From Verrucomicrobiota bacterium (lineage in GTDB: Bacteria > Verrucomicrobiota > Verrucomicrobiia > Palsa-1439): a stretch of DNA of 43,562 bases. The notes under the pieces were generated by a model that saw only the letters and a program-made list of their open reading frames with translations, had not been told where the DNA came from and did not search any database. The DNA lies in contig PLZV01000026.1 of the NCBI GenBank assembly GCA_003152315.1, forward strand, positions 55,562-99,123. The letters run 5' to 3'. A program made the translations under genes and the position numbers. Positions 20,354-27,619 of the stretch are shown one piece after another; within the stretch, counting starts at the first letter, position 1; every line of letters begins with the position of its first letter.

Positions 20354-20770
20354 CTACCTCACCGGCTCGAACACTTCTTCGGTGTGACTGGGTTGCTCGG
20401 TGGCGCGGCGGAGGAAGCCCTTGGCAATGAGGGCGCGGAGGATGCGGCCGGCGGTGGGTTGATCCACGCGCATGTCATGGACGATTTCGGACTCGGTGAC
20501 GCCGCGGCCGCGTTCGTGGATGAGTTCCAGAGCTTCTTCGAGCGGGAGTTTGTAGCCATGGTAGAGGAAAAGGATTCCAAACAGGATCAACACGGTCCCC
20601 GCGAAGATCGCACCGGTGCCTTTCAGCGGTTCTTCGGGTAGTTCGCCCATCATATTCAGGAGCACGAACACGCCCGTCAGCACGAGCACGAGGCCGATGA
20701 CTTTGAACAGTTTGCGGCGTCGGTGGAAGATGCGGTGATCGAAGTTCGCGGGCATAAGCGCGGGCCTCAT
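20354..20770 (-). CDS. Membrane protein with two helices and a C-terminal winged-helix-like region, 138 aa
   Basis: The ATG at 20770 overlaps the stop of the SPFH gene (ATGA), which fixes the start. Two hydrophobic helices (about 22-40, LFKVIGLVLVLTGVFVLL; and 49-68, GAIFAGTVLILFGILFLYHG) are joined by a short loop. The cytoplasmic tail has EEALELIHERGRGVTESEIV, then DQPTAGRILRALIAKGFLRR, which reads as a winged-helix or MarR-like fold. I recognise no named family. Coupling to the SPFH genes suggests it works with that complex, perhaps as an adaptor or sensor. Confidence 0.75.
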   Translation of the reverse strand: MRPALMPANFDHRIFHRRRKLFKVIGLVLVLTGVFVLLNMMGELPEEPLKGTGAIFAGTVLILFGILFLYHGYKLPLEEALELIHERGRGVTESEIVHDMRVDQPTAGRILRALIAKGFLRRATEQPSHTEEVFEPVR

Positions 20771-22386
20771 TTGCTGGCGGGCGGAGGACCTTGTTGCAAC
20801 TCCTGTAACACGCCCAGCGGCGCAATTTTCATCGCTTTGTCCAGGTCCGTCCACAAGGTGCCGGCACCGGCGTAGATCAACATGAGCTTCACCTGATCGG
20901 GCAGTTGCTGGGCGAACTGGTAGAACGCGTAGTCCGCCGGCGTGCCGACCGCTTTCACCTGCAAGGCGTAGCCGTCGCCTTCTGCTTTGCCCTTCAGCTC
21001 CACCACTTTCGCCTCGGCTCCGCCGAGTTTGCGTTTGATATCCGCGCGAATCGCGGCGGTCTGCCGCGCCAACTCCGCGACGAGCAACCGCGTCTGCGCG
21101 GCGGTTTCGTTCACCTGTTTTTCCTGCTCGGCGTGAATGTTGCCTTCCAGCCGCTGCGTCTCGTATTCGACAACCTGCTCGATCTGGCGAATCTTGCCGA
21201 CGTTCTCGTCGAGTTCCGCCTTGTTGGCTTCGGTCTTCGTCTTCTCCACGTTGGTAATGTTCCACTCGGCGGCGATGCGCGCGTCCTGGATCGGCCCCGA
21301 AATGTTGTCGGGTACCAGCGTGTCCTGCACGAGCGCGAGATCCACCTGCAGTTTCTTCTCCTGCAGCGTCGTCTCGATGGTTTCCTGGAAGGCCCGCTGG
21401 AATTCCTCGCGTTTGTCGCCGACGATGAAGTCCACCGCGCCAAACGTCGATCCCTTGATGCGGGCCGTGGAGTTGATCTGGGGGATCAGGATATTCTCCT
21501 CGATCTTCTTGATGTTACCGTAGCGCGCCACGACCGACGGTGCATCCTCGGGCAGCAACTGCCAGAGCAACGTCACGTCGATGGTGATCTCAAACCCGTC
21601 GCTCGACGGGAACGTGACCGCGGGCAGGACGGGAATACCGTACTGGCCGGAAGGAACCTGGGCCCGCTGCGCCGCCTCACCAATCGCTACCGCCTGTTTC
21701 TCCTTGCCGGCAAACTGGCCCGAGGTTTGCGACTGCGGCAGCTTGCCCGCATGGGCCATCGTGATTTGATTGTAGCCGATTTCAATGCGCTCGACGGAAA
21801 ACGCCTCGGGATTGAGTGGATACAGGCCGGGTTGCAGGACAACTTTTTGCACGCCGCGCTCACCGGGACCGGCGAGTTGCGTTTGCGCGGGCTTGCCCGA
21901 ACGCGCCGTGACGACACCCACGTAGCCGGGATCGATCTCAATCATTTTCAACACGCGGATTTCGTAGGCGTACGGATTGAGGCGGTAGGTGCCGGGCAAG
22001 AGCACCTCGCGCTGGATGCCGCGTTCGCCGGGGCCGGCCAGGAATTCGCCCGCGGGAAGTTCCTTGCCGAACTTGGTGATCACCACGCCGACTTCGCCGC
22101 CGGACACGACAACCTGGTCTTTCAATTGCCGCTCGTACAGGAAGGGATTAACGAAATGACGGCCCGGGCCGAGGGGTTCGAGGAGCACGCCTTTTTGTCC
22201 GGGTTCCGCGATAATTTGGCCGGGTGGCATTTCCCGGCCGGTCTTGGCAATCACGATGAGCATCTTGTTCGACGGCACCACCGTATTTTCCACCACCCAA
22301 ACCCAAAAACCTTCATAGACGAACACGTACACCAGCAGCACCACCAGCGCCGCGGCGATCCCCATCGTGAGAGTGCGGTTCTTCAT
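20767..22386 (-). CDS. SPFH/Band 7 protein with three N-terminal beta repeats (second of a pair)
   Basis: The 539 residues start with a membrane helix (about 8-30, MGIAAALVVLLVYVFVYEGF). Three repeats follow at about 42-90, 98-148 and 155-203, each ending in a common core: GPGRHFVNPFLYE, LPGTYRLNPYAYE and QPGLYPLNPEAFS, with GERGIQ or GERGVQ before the core in the last two. An SPFH region (about 240-380; FEITIDVTLLWQLLPEDAPS) and a long Glu/Lys/Gln-rich coiled coil (about 380-480) come next, ending ADYAFYQFAQQLPDQVKLML. Flotillin/HflK/HflC-like proteins form membrane cages or microdomains; three repeats before the SPFH domain are unusual for them. Coupled on both sides by ATGA overlaps. Confidence 0.85.
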   Translation of the reverse strand: MKNRTLTMGIAAALVVLLVYVFVYEGFWVWVVENTVVPSNKMLIVIAKTGREMPPGQIIAEPGQKGVLLEPLGPGRHFVNPFLYERQLKDQVVVSGGEVGVVITKFGKELPAGEFLAGPGERGIQREVLLPGTYRLNPYAYEIRVLKMIEIDPGYVGVVTARSGKPAQTQLAGPGERGVQKVVLQPGLYPLNPEAFSVERIEIGYNQITMAHAGKLPQSQTSGQFAGKEKQAVAIGEAAQRAQVPSGQYGIPVLPAVTFPSSDGFEITIDVTLLWQLLPEDAPSVVARYGNIKKIEENILIPQINSTARIKGSTFGAVDFIVGDKREEFQRAFQETIETTLQEKKLQVDLALVQDTLVPDNISGPIQDARIAAEWNITNVEKTKTEANKAELDENVGKIRQIEQVVEYETQRLEGNIHAEQEKQVNETAAQTRLLVAELARQTAAIRADIKRKLGGAEAKVVELKGKAEGDGYALQVKAVGTPADYAFYQFAQQLPDQVKLMLIYAGAGTLWTDLDKAMKIAPLGVLQELQQGPPPASK

Positions 22387-22889
22387 TGCCCGCCTCCCTT
22401 CGACGAATTCAACTCTGAACGTCCAACGTTGAACTTCGAACGTCCAACTGGGGACGGGCGACCATTTTTCGCGGCGGCGGTGCGGACGCCGGCCACGAAG
22501 ATTTTGACCAAAGCCTCCGTTTCCGCTAGAAGCGCATCAACTTGCGATGGCGGCTGCAAAAGCGGCACGCGCTTCATGAGCTTCAACCAGCGGAGCGACT
22601 CCCGCAGTTCCTTGAGGCAAATCTTCAACTTGTGGATGAAGTCGTTGCGGGACTCAGCGGCCTGTGCCTCGGCGTGGTTGGGCAGTGGCGAAGTTCCGGA
22701 CCTCAACAACTGTGCCGCGATATGATTGCCTGCACGCATCGCAGGCAATCTCTCCACCAGACGGATAATGCTGGCAGCGTACTCCAAAAGTCTCTCTTCC
22801 AGGTCGTAAATCCGATAGGTCGTGCCTTCCTCTTTCAACGTGGGAAGTTCAACGTTCAGCGTTCGACGTTCCCGCCGTTGACCGATCAC
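22383..22889 (-). CDS. Four-helix-bundle protein (S23/23S rRNA intervening-sequence family)
   Basis: The core from YDLEERLLEYAASIIRLVER through AAQLLRSGTSPLPNHAEAQA and FIHKLKICLKELRESLRWLK matches the S23 or four-helix-bundle family, about 120 residues. These proteins form pentameric bundles of unknown role and often sit at variable genomic positions. The first 25 and last 25 residues are encoded by repeat-like DNA (TLNVELPTLKEE; SKFNVGRSELNSS). The GTG start overlaps the upstream SPFH stop (GTGA) and its stop overlaps the next SPFH start (ATGA). Flanking inverted repeats at 22425 and 22844 suggest the gene was inserted into the operon. Confidence 0.85.
   Translation of the reverse strand: MIGQRRERRTLNVELPTLKEEGTTYRIYDLEERLLEYAASIIRLVERLPAMRAGNHIAAQLLRSGTSPLPNHAEAQAAESRNDFIHKLKICLKELRESLRWLKLMKRVPLLQPPSQVDALLAETEALVKIFVAGVRTAAAKNGRPSPVGRSKFNVGRSELNSSKGGGQ
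22425..22437. repeat. 13-bp inverted repeat, left copy, beside the four-helix-bundle gene
   Basis: AACGTTGAACTTC is exactly complementary to 22844-22856. Surrounding units such as GAACGTCCAACG and GAACGTCCAACT are related imperfect reiterations. Confidence 0.65.
22844..22856. repeat. 13-bp inverted repeat, right copy, beside the four-helix-bundle gene
   Basis: GAAGTTCAACGTT matches the complement of 22425-22437, followed by CAGCGTTCGACGTTCC of the same reiterated style. Confidence 0.65.
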
Positions 22890-24409
22890 TTGGCACCGCC
22901 TTTCGGCGACTTCGATAGATCCCGGAAGGGTTCCGCAAGCGGGCCGTCCGAATTGGCGAGGATCGAATCGATGTTCGGCGCGATCTTCTTCAAATACAGG
23001 TACCGTGCGTACGCCTCCCCGCTGCCGAACGGCAGGACGATCGACCGTAGCGCGTTCGCCTCGGCCGTCCGCGTGTAGGAAATCACGTCCGCGTCGCCCT
23101 GTCCCGTGGAAATGATCGCCTGGGACTGGTTCTCCGCCGTCTCCAGGTCTTTCCGGGTGACTTCGAGGTCGCGCTGCGCGGCGATGACCTGCACCTGTTG
23201 CTCCTTCGTGGCTTTTTGAATCTCGTTGGTGCGCGTGGTCTCCGCCGTCACGAAACGGACCCGCTGATCCTGCATCTTCCGCTGCTGGGCAACATTCGCA
23301 TCCGATTTGGCCCGCTCGATTTCGCTTTGGTACTTCGCGCGGGTCTGGATGGCGATCTCGCGTTCGCGAATTGGCTCGGCGATTTTTTGCGACGGCTCAA
23401 TTTCACTGATTAGCGCCGCCTTCACCAAAACGTTCTTCTTCGCCGACTCGGAAGTGATGTGCTTGCTGAATTCATCCTGAAACGCCTTGCGCACCGTGCC
23501 GCTGATGACATCGGCGGAACTGTACTTCGATCCCTGGATGCGGCTCATCGAAAGCGCCGAGCGCAGGATCACCTTGTTGACGATGTCCTCCTCGTCGCCG
23601 ATCTTCACGAACACCTCGGGCGCCTTCGCCTCCTCCACCGCCCACTCGACCGCGCCCTTGACGGGAAAGCGGAAGCCGTCCCTCGAAAGGAAGTTGATCT
23701 CGAATTCCGTCTTATGGCTCTGCACACCGACCACGTCCACGCGATAGATGTACGGGTTGAGGTAATACGTGCCCGGCCGCAACGGCGTTTCCTGCACACC
23801 GCGCTCACCCTCCTTCACAAGAATCGTGTTCGCCTCCGCCGGATCGCGTCCGTAACGGAGCGTTACCACGCCGACCTCGCCGGGTTCGATCTTCACCGCG
23901 GGCCGTTTCTCGACGTGGTAGGCGTTGGGATTGATTCGGTACGTGCCTGGCCGCAAAGGTTCCTCGATCACGCCGCGATACTGTGTGCCGTCCGGCTCCT
24001 TGTTCTTCACGATGAACTGGCCCGCCGGCGCGGTCTTGCCAAACTGCCGGACCAGCACGCCGACTTCGCTCTGCTGGATCTGGACCAACGGCACAATCTC
24101 CCAGTGCCAATACACCGGGTTGCGGAAATAGCGTCCCTCGCTCAGCGGATCCAACTGGATGCCCTTCTGGTCGGGCGAGGTGGCGATGATTTCGTTGGCA
24201 GGGATATCCTTGCCGTCGAGCCGGGTCAGGATCGCGCAGGTTCCGGTGGGTGGCTCGATGCGGCAGAAGAACCACGCGAACACGAGCCCGCAGACAATCG
24301 CAGCGGCGAGAATCACCCCGCCGATGAGACCAAACCGCATCGGGTCAAAACCATAACGCGCCCCGCCGGTGTCTTCATGCCGGGGCGGAACTGCATTGAA
24401 AGCAGCCAC
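22886..24409 (-). CDS. SPFH/Band 7 protein with three N-terminal beta repeats (first of a pair)
   Basis: The GTG start at 24409 has a strong GGAGGTGAT ribosome site, and an ATG is not needed. A membrane helix lies at about 27-48. Three repeats occupy about 57-106, 116-168 and 179-228, with cores SEGRYFRNPVYW, RPGTYRINPNAYH and RPGTYYLNPYIYR, and GERGVQETPL in the third. The SPFH region follows (FEINFLSRDGFRFPVKGAVE), then a coiled coil (about 330-450) rich in REIAIQTRAKYQSEIERAKS-like text, and SGEAYARYLYLKKIAPNID, typical of band-7 C-termini. It differs enough from the second SPFH protein to suggest a hetero-oligomer like HflK/HflC. Confidence 0.86.
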   Translation of the reverse strand: MAAFNAVPPRHEDTGGARYGFDPMRFGLIGGVILAAAIVCGLVFAWFFCRIEPPTGTCAILTRLDGKDIPANEIIATSPDQKGIQLDPLSEGRYFRNPVYWHWEIVPLVQIQQSEVGVLVRQFGKTAPAGQFIVKNKEPDGTQYRGVIEEPLRPGTYRINPNAYHVEKRPAVKIEPGEVGVVTLRYGRDPAEANTILVKEGERGVQETPLRPGTYYLNPYIYRVDVVGVQSHKTEFEINFLSRDGFRFPVKGAVEWAVEEAKAPEVFVKIGDEEDIVNKVILRSALSMSRIQGSKYSSADVISGTVRKAFQDEFSKHITSESAKKNVLVKAALISEIEPSQKIAEPIREREIAIQTRAKYQSEIERAKSDANVAQQRKMQDQRVRFVTAETTRTNEIQKATKEQQVQVIAAQRDLEVTRKDLETAENQSQAIISTGQGDADVISYTRTAEANALRSIVLPFGSGEAYARYLYLKKIAPNIDSILANSDGPLAEPFRDLSKSPKGGAK

Positions 24410-24581: not shown

Positions 24582-25355
24582 GTGAGCACGTCGACCAACG
24601 GCGCACCCGGATTCAGCGACTCGGCGGCCGGTGAATATCAACATCCGGTTTTCGCCACGACACATTGGTCGGTAGTGCTCAAGGCCGGGCAGAGCGACAC
24701 GACCCACGCCCGGGATGCTTTGGCGAGGCTCTGTCAGACCTACTGGTATCCCCTGTACGCCTATGTGCGCCGCCGCGATCACTCGGTGCACGATGCCCAG
24801 GATCTCACCCAGGCATTCTTCGCGCGGTTGCTCGAACGCCATTGGGTAAGTGACGCCAAACAGGAGCGCGGACGCTTCCGAACATTCCTGCTCACGGCCA
24901 TGAGCCGGTTTCTCTCGGACGAATGGGACAAACTGCGCGCCCAAAAGCGCGGAGGCGGGATCCCGCTGCTACCCTTGCAACTGGACACGGGAGAAACCCG
25001 CTATGGACACGAGCCAGCGGACAACAGCACGCCCGAGCAATACTTCGAGCGACGCTGGGCGTTGACCTTGCTCGACACGGTGTTGCAGCGCCTGCGAGGT
25101 GAATATGACCGTGAGGGAAAAGGCGCCTTGTTCGCCGCGTTGCATCCAACCCTGGTCGGCGATCGCGAACTGCAGCCCTATGCGAAACTGGCCGACGGCC
25201 TGGGCATGCAAGAGGGTGCAGTCAAGGTGGCGGTGCATCGCCTGCGCAAACGCTACCGACAATTACTCCGTGAAGAGATTGGCGAGACAATGGCTGAGTC
25301 TGAGGACATTGATGAGGAATTGCGCCACCTCTTTGCCGTGCTGGCCCGACGGTAG
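24582..25355 (+). CDS. ECF-type RNA polymerase sigma factor, 257 aa
   Basis: The GTG at 24582 is the start. Region 2 is seen in ARLCQTYWYPLYAYVRRRDH, then HDAQDLTQAFFARLLERHWV, the latter being the sigma-2.2 core, followed by GRFRTFLLTAMSRFLSDEWD. Region 4 is represented by LFAALHPTLVG and by LADGLGMQEGAVKVAVHRLR plus KRYRQLLREEI, the DNA-binding helix-turn-helix. The long linker between the regions and the acidic tail fit the ECF groups that occur with Ser/Thr kinases in planctomycetes and verrucomicrobia. The kinase gene starts 62 bp later and is its likely controller. Confidence 0.9.
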   Translation: MSTSTNGAPGFSDSAAGEYQHPVFATTHWSVVLKAGQSDTTHARDALARLCQTYWYPLYAYVRRRDHSVHDAQDLTQAFFARLLERHWVSDAKQERGRFRTFLLTAMSRFLSDEWDKLRAQKRGGGIPLLPLQLDTGETRYGHEPADNSTPEQYFERRWALTLLDTVLQRLRGEYDREGKGALFAALHPTLVGDRELQPYAKLADGLGMQEGAVKVAVHRLRKRYRQLLREEIGETMAESEDIDEELRHLFAVLARR

Positions 25356-25417
25356 TTTGCACCAGCCTGTAACCTTTCCCCCGCAATTCCTAAGAACTGG
25401 GTAGAAGCGACGATCAT

Positions 25418-27619
25418 ATGGATACCGAACGCATTTGCCCAAGTTGCCAGAAGCCGCTGGCCCCGGATGTGCCGTTGGGCCTTTGCCCGGAATGCCTCAT
25501 AAAGTCCGGTTTTCCCACCGGCGAGGAATCGGCCGGTGCCAAGCGTCCCCCTTTCACTCCGCCCACGGTGGAAGAGCTGGCCAAACTCTTCCCGCAACTT
25601 GAAATCCTTGAACTCATCGGTAAGGGTGGCATGGGGGCCGTTTACAAGGCCCGCCAACCAAGGCTGAATCGTTTCGTGGCGCTCAAAATCCTCCCGCCCA
25701 GCATCGGCAGCGACCCGGCCTTCGCCGAACGTTTTGCTCGCGAAGCCCAGGCGCTCGCGCAGCTCAACCACCCCGGTATCGTCATCCTCTACGAGTTCGG
25801 CCAGGCGGGCGGCCTGCACTTCTTCATGATGGAGTTTGTGGACGGCATAAATCTGCGGCAGCTGCTCGTCAACGGCCGCATCGCTCCCCGCGAAGCGCTG
25901 GCCATCGTGCCGCAAATCTGCGATGCGCTTCAGTTCGCCCACGACCATGGCATCGTTCATCGCGACATCAAGCCGGAGAATATCCTACTCGACCGTCGCG
26001 GACGCGTGAAGGTCGCGGACTTCGGCCTGGCCAAAATCATCGGCGGTGCAAATGAACCAGTGGCCGTTGGTCGCCCGGCCGGCGCACCTTTGCTAACCGA
26101 GACGGGCAAAATCATCGGCACGCCACAATACATGTCTCCCGAGCAGATTGCCCATCCCGCCAACGTGGACCATCGCGCGGATATCTACGCGCTGGGCGTG
26201 GTGTTTTACCAGATGCTCACCGGCGAACTGCCCGGTAAAACCATCGAACCGCCGTCGAAGAAAGTTCACATTGACGTGCGGCTCGACGAGGTGGTGTTGC
26301 GCGCATTGGAGAAGAAGCCTGAACTCCGCTACCAGCAAGTCAGCGAAGTGAAGACCATGGTGGAGACGATTGTGAATTCCGAGAGTACCACCGCGCCAGT
26401 TGCCGCTCCGTCAACTAGAACGAGGGCCGATCAATCGCCGCTTGTACACATCATAGAAACCCTGTTTGGTATCACATTTACGTCACCGGGGGCTATCACG
26501 CTGATCAAAGTCTCCGCGCTTGGCTTTCTCGCCTTCCTGTCTTTTCTCGGCGACATACCACTACCAGGAATGCACCATTTTTTTGGCTTCTCCGGATTTT
26601 CCGGCTTCTTCGGGCTGATCGGATTCGCGTTTCTTGTTGAATTCGTGGAACGACGCAAAGTGAAGACAAAAAGTTCATATCCCCTTCCCGTTGTGGAATC
26701 CTGGCTGGCAATTATGGATGCCGGTAATTACGCGCAAAGCTGGGACACGGCCGCGAAGTATTTTCAAAAGGCGATTACAAAAGTGGAATGGATTGAACGG
26801 TCGCAAAGCGCGCGCCAACCACAAGGCAAAGTCATTTCGCGACAATTGAGAACGGCACGGCGTTTCGGCTCGCGCTTCATAGTAACGTTCGACACGGCCT
26901 TCGCCGGCTTGAAAGCGGCGGTGGAGACCGTAACGTTTTCACGGGAACACGACGGCCAATGGCGCGCCATCGGTTATTTGATTCTTCCGGCTTATGCAGA
27001 ACGCGCACAGTTGGGGTGGCTTGGGAAGCAAGCGTTGTTTTTTGCCGGCTTGGCGGGGGTTTTGGGGATTTTGACGATCTGTCTTTCTCCAAATCCCCCG
27101 GCGCTTTTGGTCTGGTCGATTTTGGCGGCGGCCTTGTTTGGCATTATCTTGGGAATCTGTGCGCGCCGGAATCCGTTCGGCAAGAGAGCAATCAAAGTCG
27201 GCAGCATCAACGCCGCGATCTGGCTGATTGTCCTGATAGCCGCGAATTTGCATCAGAGTACGACTTTTTATATTGGCCAAACGTCGTTTCCAAATGGCGA
27301 TTCCATCGTCATCACTTCCGTGAGGCGAACCAAAGAACAAATGGTCGTCAAGGGCCACTACAATCTGGTCAGTACAGACCGTGCACGTCTGGCCCTCTAT
27401 ATTACCACCAGTTCGACGAACAGTACTCACCCCGATTCAAGACAATGGGTGCAGATTTCGAAAGGACAAGGCGATTTTGAACTGACGCATCCGCACGTTG
27501 TTCCGGGATTGCCACACCTGAACATGTATCCGGTGGGTGGCGGCGGACCATTTGCGGAGCTGTATTTTGGAACTCAGGCTGAAGCCGCCGAAGAGGGCAG
27601 ACTTGGTCTTGGCTATTAA
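25418..27619 (+). CDS. Membrane Ser/Thr protein kinase with zinc ribbon and DUF4019-like domain
   Basis: A short zinc-ribbon (CPSCQKPL...LCPEC, residues about 5-26) precedes a PknB-type kinase domain: glycine loop LIGKGGMGAVYKAR near 65, VALKIL, catalytic HRDIKPEN near 180, DFGLAK near 202, and GTPQYMSPEQ. A transmembrane pair lies at about 360-420. Residues about 425-525 (VVESWLAIMDAGNYAQSWDT to ETVTFSREHDGQWRAIGYLI) match DUF4019, seen as the sensor part of such kinases. More membrane helices (about 525-610) and a beta-rich C-terminal part follow. It probably phosphorylates or controls the adjacent sigma factor. Confidence 0.93.
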   Translation: MDTERICPSCQKPLAPDVPLGLCPECLIKSGFPTGEESAGAKRPPFTPPTVEELAKLFPQLEILELIGKGGMGAVYKARQPRLNRFVALKILPPSIGSDPAFAERFAREAQALAQLNHPGIVILYEFGQAGGLHFFMMEFVDGINLRQLLVNGRIAPREALAIVPQICDALQFAHDHGIVHRDIKPENILLDRRGRVKVADFGLAKIIGGANEPVAVGRPAGAPLLTETGKIIGTPQYMSPEQIAHPANVDHRADIYALGVVFYQMLTGELPGKTIEPPSKKVHIDVRLDEVVLRALEKKPELRYQQVSEVKTMVETIVNSESTTAPVAAPSTRTRADQSPLVHIIETLFGITFTSPGAITLIKVSALGFLAFLSFLGDIPLPGMHHFFGFSGFSGFFGLIGFAFLVEFVERRKVKTKSSYPLPVVESWLAIMDAGNYAQSWDTAAKYFQKAITKVEWIERSQSARQPQGKVISRQLRTARRFGSRFIVTFDTAFAGLKAAVETVTFSREHDGQWRAIGYLILPAYAERAQLGWLGKQALFFAGLAGVLGILTICLSPNPPALLVWSILAAALFGIILGICARRNPFGKRAIKVGSINAAIWLIVLIAANLHQSTTFYIGQTSFPNGDSIVITSVRRTKEQMVVKGHYNLVSTDRARLALYITTSSTNSTHPDSRQWVQISKGQGDFELTHPHVVPGLPHLNMYPVGGGGPFAELYFGTQAEAAEEGRLGLGY

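Follow-up and report, generated by a model that had tools for sequence, protein, structure and literature searches.

Predicted vault-like domain order in a pair of adjacent, membrane-anchored SPFH proteins from a Verrucomicrobiota bacterium

An SPFH Gene Pair With Tandem Beta Repeats

The window analyzed here, a stretch of 43,562 nucleotides of contig PLZV01000026.1 from a Verrucomicrobiota bacterium, carries two genes, A and B, each encoding an SPFH protein with an N-terminal transmembrane (TM) helix, three tandem beta repeats and a long helix (Table 1). The two proteins are interpreted as ancient SPFH paralogues that probably assemble together (roughly 60% in our estimate) into a dome anchored in the membrane; this hetero-oligomer would be a vault-like variant of the cage of HflK/C or prohibitin, distinguished by its taller wall. 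A previous sequence-only reading had already pointed to both SPFH genes; the two open reading frames (ORFs) were found at the coordinates it gave, and their products matched the Band_7 family over the curated cut-off (3e-23 for A and 6.7e-22 for B). The order that it had described, with the TM helix first and the SPFH region and the long helix later, was also recovered in both proteins from AlphaFold2 helices, hydropathy and Pfam. Band_7 was present in all 29 members of two alignments of relatives.

The repeats, beta units of about 50–63 residues, had been reported to align inside and between the two proteins, and this was borne out by shuffle-controlled alignments and by reciprocal hidden Markov models (HMMs); the motifs quoted for them were found in A2, A3, B2, and B3. 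All of the repeat-to-repeat alignments (15/15) were better than 500 shuffles, with z values of 6.2–23.9, and repeat B2 matched A2 at 1.9e-13. The HMM made only from the repeats of A gave 55.8, 36.3, and 26.1 bits for the three repeats of B, the maximum in 1,000 shuffles of B being 5.1, and the one made only from the repeats of B gave 46.0, 43.8, and 33.2 bits in A (shuffle maximum 5.7, 1,000 shuffles). A chance origin of the repeats was rejected by these shuffle tests. The genome encodes three more Band_7 proteins, and the repeat HMM gave only background scores for them.

The arrangement proposed previously, three repeats and then the SPFH region, had to be amended in one respect. There are three repeats, but the third one is the N-terminal hairpin of Band_7 and not a unit preceding it: the Band_7 match begins at residue 173 of A and 150 of B, where it coincides with the third repeat. 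Additionally, repeat 2 of B by itself matched Band_7 positions 2–37 (E 0.0011). Since the third repeat coincides with the Band_7 N-terminus, and B2 alone also matches this family, the repeat unit is the SPFH1 hairpin. Each protein therefore has this hairpin twice more ahead of the SPFH core.

Structural Comparison With the Major Vault Protein

The major vault protein (MVP) is composed of nine three-stranded beta repeats (R1–R9), a shoulder homologous to SPFH and a cap helix (PMC13347060), and this combination of wall repeats, shoulder and cap helix has been termed unique to vaults in the recent literature. AlphaFold2 models of A and B were made from 16 sequences, comprising the window proteins and related loci. 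Their mean predicted local distance difference test (pLDDT) values were 76.9 for A and 73.5 for B, the repeats being mostly at 80–94 and the distal helix low. Along the long helix of A the pLDDT dropped from about 75 to 44, and in B confidence was low past residue 428 and, with values below 50, in an insertion of the SPFH domain at about residues 215–251. The strand pattern was similar across the three repeat units in both models.

When the models were compared with the PDB by Foldseek, prohibitin was the first match (2.6e-13 for A and 8.7e-12 for B) and MVP the fourth (4.5e-12, human MVP, for A and 5.6e-11 for B). In the VIA alignments, residues 50–384 of A were placed on MVP 323–691 (7pkz, the best fit; 278 residues, 3.8 Å, Z 10.7), and residues 33–430 of B on MVP 322–717 (9r86; 306 residues, 5.4 Å, Z 10.7). 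The identity in model-to-structure comparisons was 9–16%. Most MVP chains aligned from residues 39–51 of A or 32–34 of B and from MVP 315–324, and continued through the shoulder and the cap helix, the alignments reaching MVP residues 691–737. By contrast, full-length chains of prohibitin, erlin, HflK/C, flotillin, and QmcA aligned only from residues 169–172 of A and 146–148 of B, that is, from repeat 3; a single stomatin chain aligned from residue 112 of B. Judged on these models, the range of the alignment says more than its score about MVP versus canonical SPFH proteins.

The aligned start in MVP (residue 322–323) is taken by us to be R7, according to the residue boundaries of R7, and repeat 3 would consequently correspond to R9 and to the canonical SPFH1. 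The alignments of the predicted models to MVP formed one continuous run over vault repeats R7–R9, the shoulder and the cap helix, so that in the predicted structures the tandem beta repeats stand directly ahead of an SPFH-like shoulder that is followed by a cap helix. Structure prediction and fold comparison, the test proposed when the vault-like order was first suggested, thus favored that order in both models.

Conservation of the Gene Pair

A two-repeat profile found matches in 98 of the 388 genomes of the phylum, widespread in another class and limited to a few families in the class of the window. From the other class, 19 pair loci were picked for having two visible matches about 1.5 kb apart, and they show the arrangement of the genes, not its frequency. 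The 3' end of A overlapped the 5' end of B by 4 nt (ATGA, GTGA, or TTGA) in 18 of these loci and by 1 nt in the remaining one, and exactly three repeats were counted in each protein wherever both ORFs had been called. No conserved neighbor besides A and B was detected in the loci examined; a larger conserved operon was rejected, as only these two genes recur.

In a tree of 90 proteins with midpoint rooting, A and B formed separate clades with supports of 0.999 and 0.991, respectively, and a third clade (support 1.0) contained single-gene proteins with more repeats. The separation of the A and B clades indicates that the duplication predates the split of all of these lineages and that the pair has been kept together since. 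Ancient and strictly adjacent paralogues support a hetero-oligomer, and this pattern is, we infer, what obligate hetero-oligomers look like. The C-terminal motif of B was conserved as well, with G-TLWTDL unchanged in all 11 C-terminal halves that were full-length in the alignment of relatives. A longer form, AGxGTLWTDL, was near-invariant around residues 505–515 of B and appeared as GT[LM]WTD in the viral B proteins; no known motif was found to match it.

The genome also encodes FtsH and nothing over the cut-off for hflK, its other Band_7 proteins being FloA, a slipin beside an NfeD-like protease gene, and one weak Band_7 protein; for these reasons the pair may be the main heteromeric SPFH dome of the organism. 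The same inventory would suit a functional equivalent of HflK/HflC, a dome that modulates FtsH and whose extra repeats merely lengthen the linker to the membrane. As in hflK-hflC, the genes are adjacent, paralogous and endowed with an N-terminal TM helix, and HflK/C structures were among the fold matches. However, membership in HflK/HflC was rejected, since neither protein matched hflK (TIGR01933) or hflC (TIGR01932) in NCBIfam at E up to 1; moreover, neither ftsH nor hflX was linked to the pair in the loci examined, and the occurrence on viral contigs described below argues for more than housekeeping. This explanation is considered unlikely, although it is the strongest of the rivals to the tall hetero-oligomeric dome.

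Viral Members and Single-Gene Relatives

A followed by B was found on five IMG/VR contigs of 48–527 kb (L095, L096, L097, L099, and L104), on each of which the two genes gave the sole Band_7 matches. A terminase match was present in three of the five; among the contigs of 355,825, 430,229, and 527,112 bp, two had one. The viral pairs clustered with the lineage of the window in both clades, with a support of 0.905 in B and a weak one, 0.173, in A. Genes of the single-gene type were detected in a 642,428-bp uncultured phage record (LR756502.1, 343.8–345.7 kb; L106 4761–6656) and in the Vibrio phages Kuja (Ackermannviridae; L107 3704–5347) and 207E48.1. The annotation of these phage genes is hypothetical or membrane protein at best, with one SPFH; that of Kuja is putative membrane protein. 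Two further viral scans did not detect any relative, and a search of plasmids detected single-gene relatives only.

The very large contigs, the clustering with viral pairs and the single-gene relatives in phages would all be in line with a phage-related membrane guard that very large phages and bacteria have exchanged, and that serves, for example, to exclude superinfection, repair the membrane or shield the infection site. Nevertheless, most members lie in bacterial genomes without phage neighbors and in many families of the other class, which fits a cellular function, and this role is regarded as less probable still than that of an HflK/HflC equivalent.

Proteins of the single-gene class (L041, L011, L047–L049, LR756502.1, Kuja, Streptomyces clavuligerus, and P. 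phymatum) share with A and B the N-terminal TM helix and the repeat unit before the SPFH core, but they were unpaired in the loci examined and belong to the separate clade mentioned above. They have about 600–840 residues and 4 to 7 repeats, many of which are lengthened to about 74 residues by an insertion (FQD...FL..GG.KG motif). Seven repeats were found in an 838-residue ORF in L041, and four or five in each of the proteins from G046, G053, G026, G002, and the plasmids of S. clavuligerus and P. phymatum. Such variation in the number of wall units would be expected if every unit contributed one tier.

On the megaplasmid of S. clavuligerus (L109 1708–5710), a 649-residue SPFH protein with four repeats is encoded directly 3' of two TIR-domain genes, and a defense context is possible. 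In addition, two SPFH proteins of the giant virus Harvfovirus (507 and 802 residues) aligned to the model of A over about 500 columns in BFVD and may carry wall repeats.

Proposed Dome and Its Relation to Known Cages

In the dome proposed here for A and B, one N-terminal helix would anchor each protein, most likely with the N-terminus inside and the remainder in the periplasm, as in HflK/HflC; the charge bias of the N-terminal flank is consistent with this orientation. Both proteins most likely co-assemble into a dome standing on the membrane. The two extra SPFH1 hairpins, located between the anchor and the SPFH core, would provide two more wall tiers, making the dome taller than that of HflK/C or prohibitin and placing the core farther from the membrane, and these wall units would be of the same kind as those of the vault wall. 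For the roof, we propose the long helices together with the conserved C-terminal segment of B; the dome could enclose a patch of membrane with its proteins, for a microdomain, quality control or the sequestration of partners. In solved SPFH complexes, the SPFH1 and SPFH2 domains pack laterally, with the helices as a closed roof above a membrane patch (PMC12624060). A closed vault of two halves is unlikely because both A and B have an N-terminal TM helix.

Several points weigh against this proposal. Pfam scans to E 10 found no vault family (Vault, MVP_shoulder) for A, B or their relatives, and PDB sequence searches returned no MVP chain. The AlphaFold2 alignments were shallow (16 rows), with a predicted template modeling score of about 0.5 and low confidence in the distal helix; a Z of 10–11 is a value that repeats may reach through a common arrangement and is no proof of homology, and the known similarity of SPFH and shoulder makes up part of each MVP score. 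The positive-inside bias was modest, K/R being more abundant before the helix in 44 of 86 family members and after it in 19 of 86. Finally, the oligomer of A and B is a deduction from the SPFH family. This last point, together with short beta units that have conserved glycines and PG-Y-NP loops, could also suggest a beta array that binds lipid, a ligand or peptidoglycan in small complexes without a cage, but this is very improbable, as the repeats run straight into SPFH1, whose lateral packing gives rings in solved SPFH complexes (PMC12624060), and MVP builds its wall from such units according to the structural alignments.

Membership in MVP by sequence was rejected, since no sequence search detects MVP, and so was an MVP orthologue in the phylum, as the 388 genomes contained no MVP_shoulder over the cut-off and only one sub-threshold match of 54 residues. 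The vault link suggested from the sequence therefore holds for the domain order, seen in the AlphaFold2 models and the MVP alignments, but not as sequence-level homology. Because the domain order was found while a sequence match and nine repeats were not, the pair is filed in the SPFH superfamily and not as MVP.

The tall dome proposed for A and B can be compared with several known systems. Prohibitin (PHB1/PHB2) and HflK/HflC, which were top fold matches, also consist of two paralogous subunits with an N-terminal TM helix, SPFH1, SPFH2, and a long helix; however, they have one SPFH1 unit, whereas in A and B two more copies stand in tandem between the anchor and this unit. MVP has tandem beta repeats, an SPFH-like shoulder and a long helix in the same order, but with nine repeats instead of three (or 4–7 in the single-gene relatives), an N-terminal dimer interface in the place of the TM helix, and one subunit type instead of two. 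Flotillin, erlin, stomatin, and QmcA share the SPFH core and the helix and form membrane-standing cages in solved structures, with a structural match that starts at repeat 3 of A; to our knowledge, tandem wall repeats are not found in them.

The vault is a large and widely conserved eukaryotic particle whose function and origin are unsettled. The bacterial and viral proteins described here join a TM anchor and tandem MVP-like repeats ahead of an SPFH core. It is conceivable, though more doubtful than the dome itself, that A and B represent a prokaryotic membrane-anchored half-vault with the wall repeat of the vault, that vaults arose from SPFH domes through duplication of the SPFH1 hairpin in such proteins, and that very large phages act as carriers of the pair. 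Should the predictions prove right, the repeat of the vault is an SPFH1 hairpin that has been duplicated, and there are intermediates carrying 3 to 7 repeats; the origin and mechanics of a vault-type wall would then become testable in simple bacteria. In 2009, prokaryotic SPFH proteins were sorted into 12 subfamilies in a classification that makes no mention of tandem repeats (PMC2636767), and no paper on prokaryotic vault-like SPFH repeats was found in a search that left subscription journals and bioRxiv preprints mostly outside its scope.

Table 1. Features of the SPFH gene pair and the adjacent small genes (window positions; residues refer to each protein).
Feature	Position	Strand	Evidence
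Gene A, SPFH protein with membrane anchor and three beta repeats, 507 aa	22886-24409	-	ORF; Pfam Band_7; AlphaFold2 model
A N-terminal TM helix, residues 23-48	24266-24343	-	AlphaFold2 helix; hydropathy
A repeat 1, residues 57-114	24068-24241	-	repeat HMM 91.3 bits
A repeat 2, residues 115-177	23879-24067	-	repeat HMM 88.1 bits
A repeat 3 (also the SPFH1 hairpin), residues 178-232	23714-23878	-	repeat HMM 81.5 bits; within Band_7 match
A Band_7/SPFH domain, residues 173-371	23297-23893	-	Pfam PF01145
A long helix, residues 341-427, aligned with MVP cap helix	23129-23389	-	AlphaFold2; VIA alignment
Gene B, partner SPFH protein with three beta repeats, 539 aa	20767-22386	-	ORF; Pfam Band_7; AlphaFold2 model
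B N-terminal TM helix, residues 2-32	22291-22383	-	AlphaFold2 helix; hydropathy
B repeat 1, residues 41-97	22096-22266	-	repeat HMM 88.8 bits
B repeat 2, residues 98-154	21925-22095	-	repeat HMM 95.9 bits
B repeat 3 (also the SPFH1 hairpin), residues 155-205	21772-21924	-	repeat HMM 71.7 bits; within Band_7 match
B Band_7/SPFH domain, residues 150-387	21226-21939	-	Pfam PF01145
B long helix, residues 360-450, aligned with MVP cap helix	21037-21309	-	AlphaFold2; VIA
B conserved C-terminal motif GTLWTDL, residues 509-515	20842-20862	-	alignments of relatives
TIGR02436 four-helix-bundle gene (23S rRNA IVP-like), between A and B	22383-22889	-	NCBIfam 2.3e-22
Small ORF 3' of B, two predicted TM segments then MarR-like winged helix	20354-20755	-	Pfam MarR 2.8e-6

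Genomic Neighborhood

The range assigned to the pair by the sequence-only reading (20354–24409) does hold A and B, but it also includes the TIGR02436 gene and the small TM and winged-helix ORF. The TIGR02436 gene was missing in a genus-mate (G002, L039) and in L036, where A and B overlap as usual. At its ends, ACGTT/AACGT words occurred 4 times per 60–80 bp, compared with 96 in the whole 43.5 kb, and its flanks resembled imperfect copies of the stretch that holds the A stop codon and the B start codon (stop/ribosome-binding site). These words were absent from three further members of the TIGR02436 family elsewhere in the genome. The gene is best seen as a recent, lineage-specific passenger that is no part of the A-B system.

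Concerning the small ORF, no homologue was found near the pair in the distant loci of the other class, and a similar ORF was located 3' of B in L036; it is a possible membrane-tethered regulator. Moreover, an ECF-type sigma factor and a Ser/Thr kinase with DUF4019 are encoded divergently from gene A (24582–27619, + strand), and the genus-mate G002 (L039) has the same neighbors.

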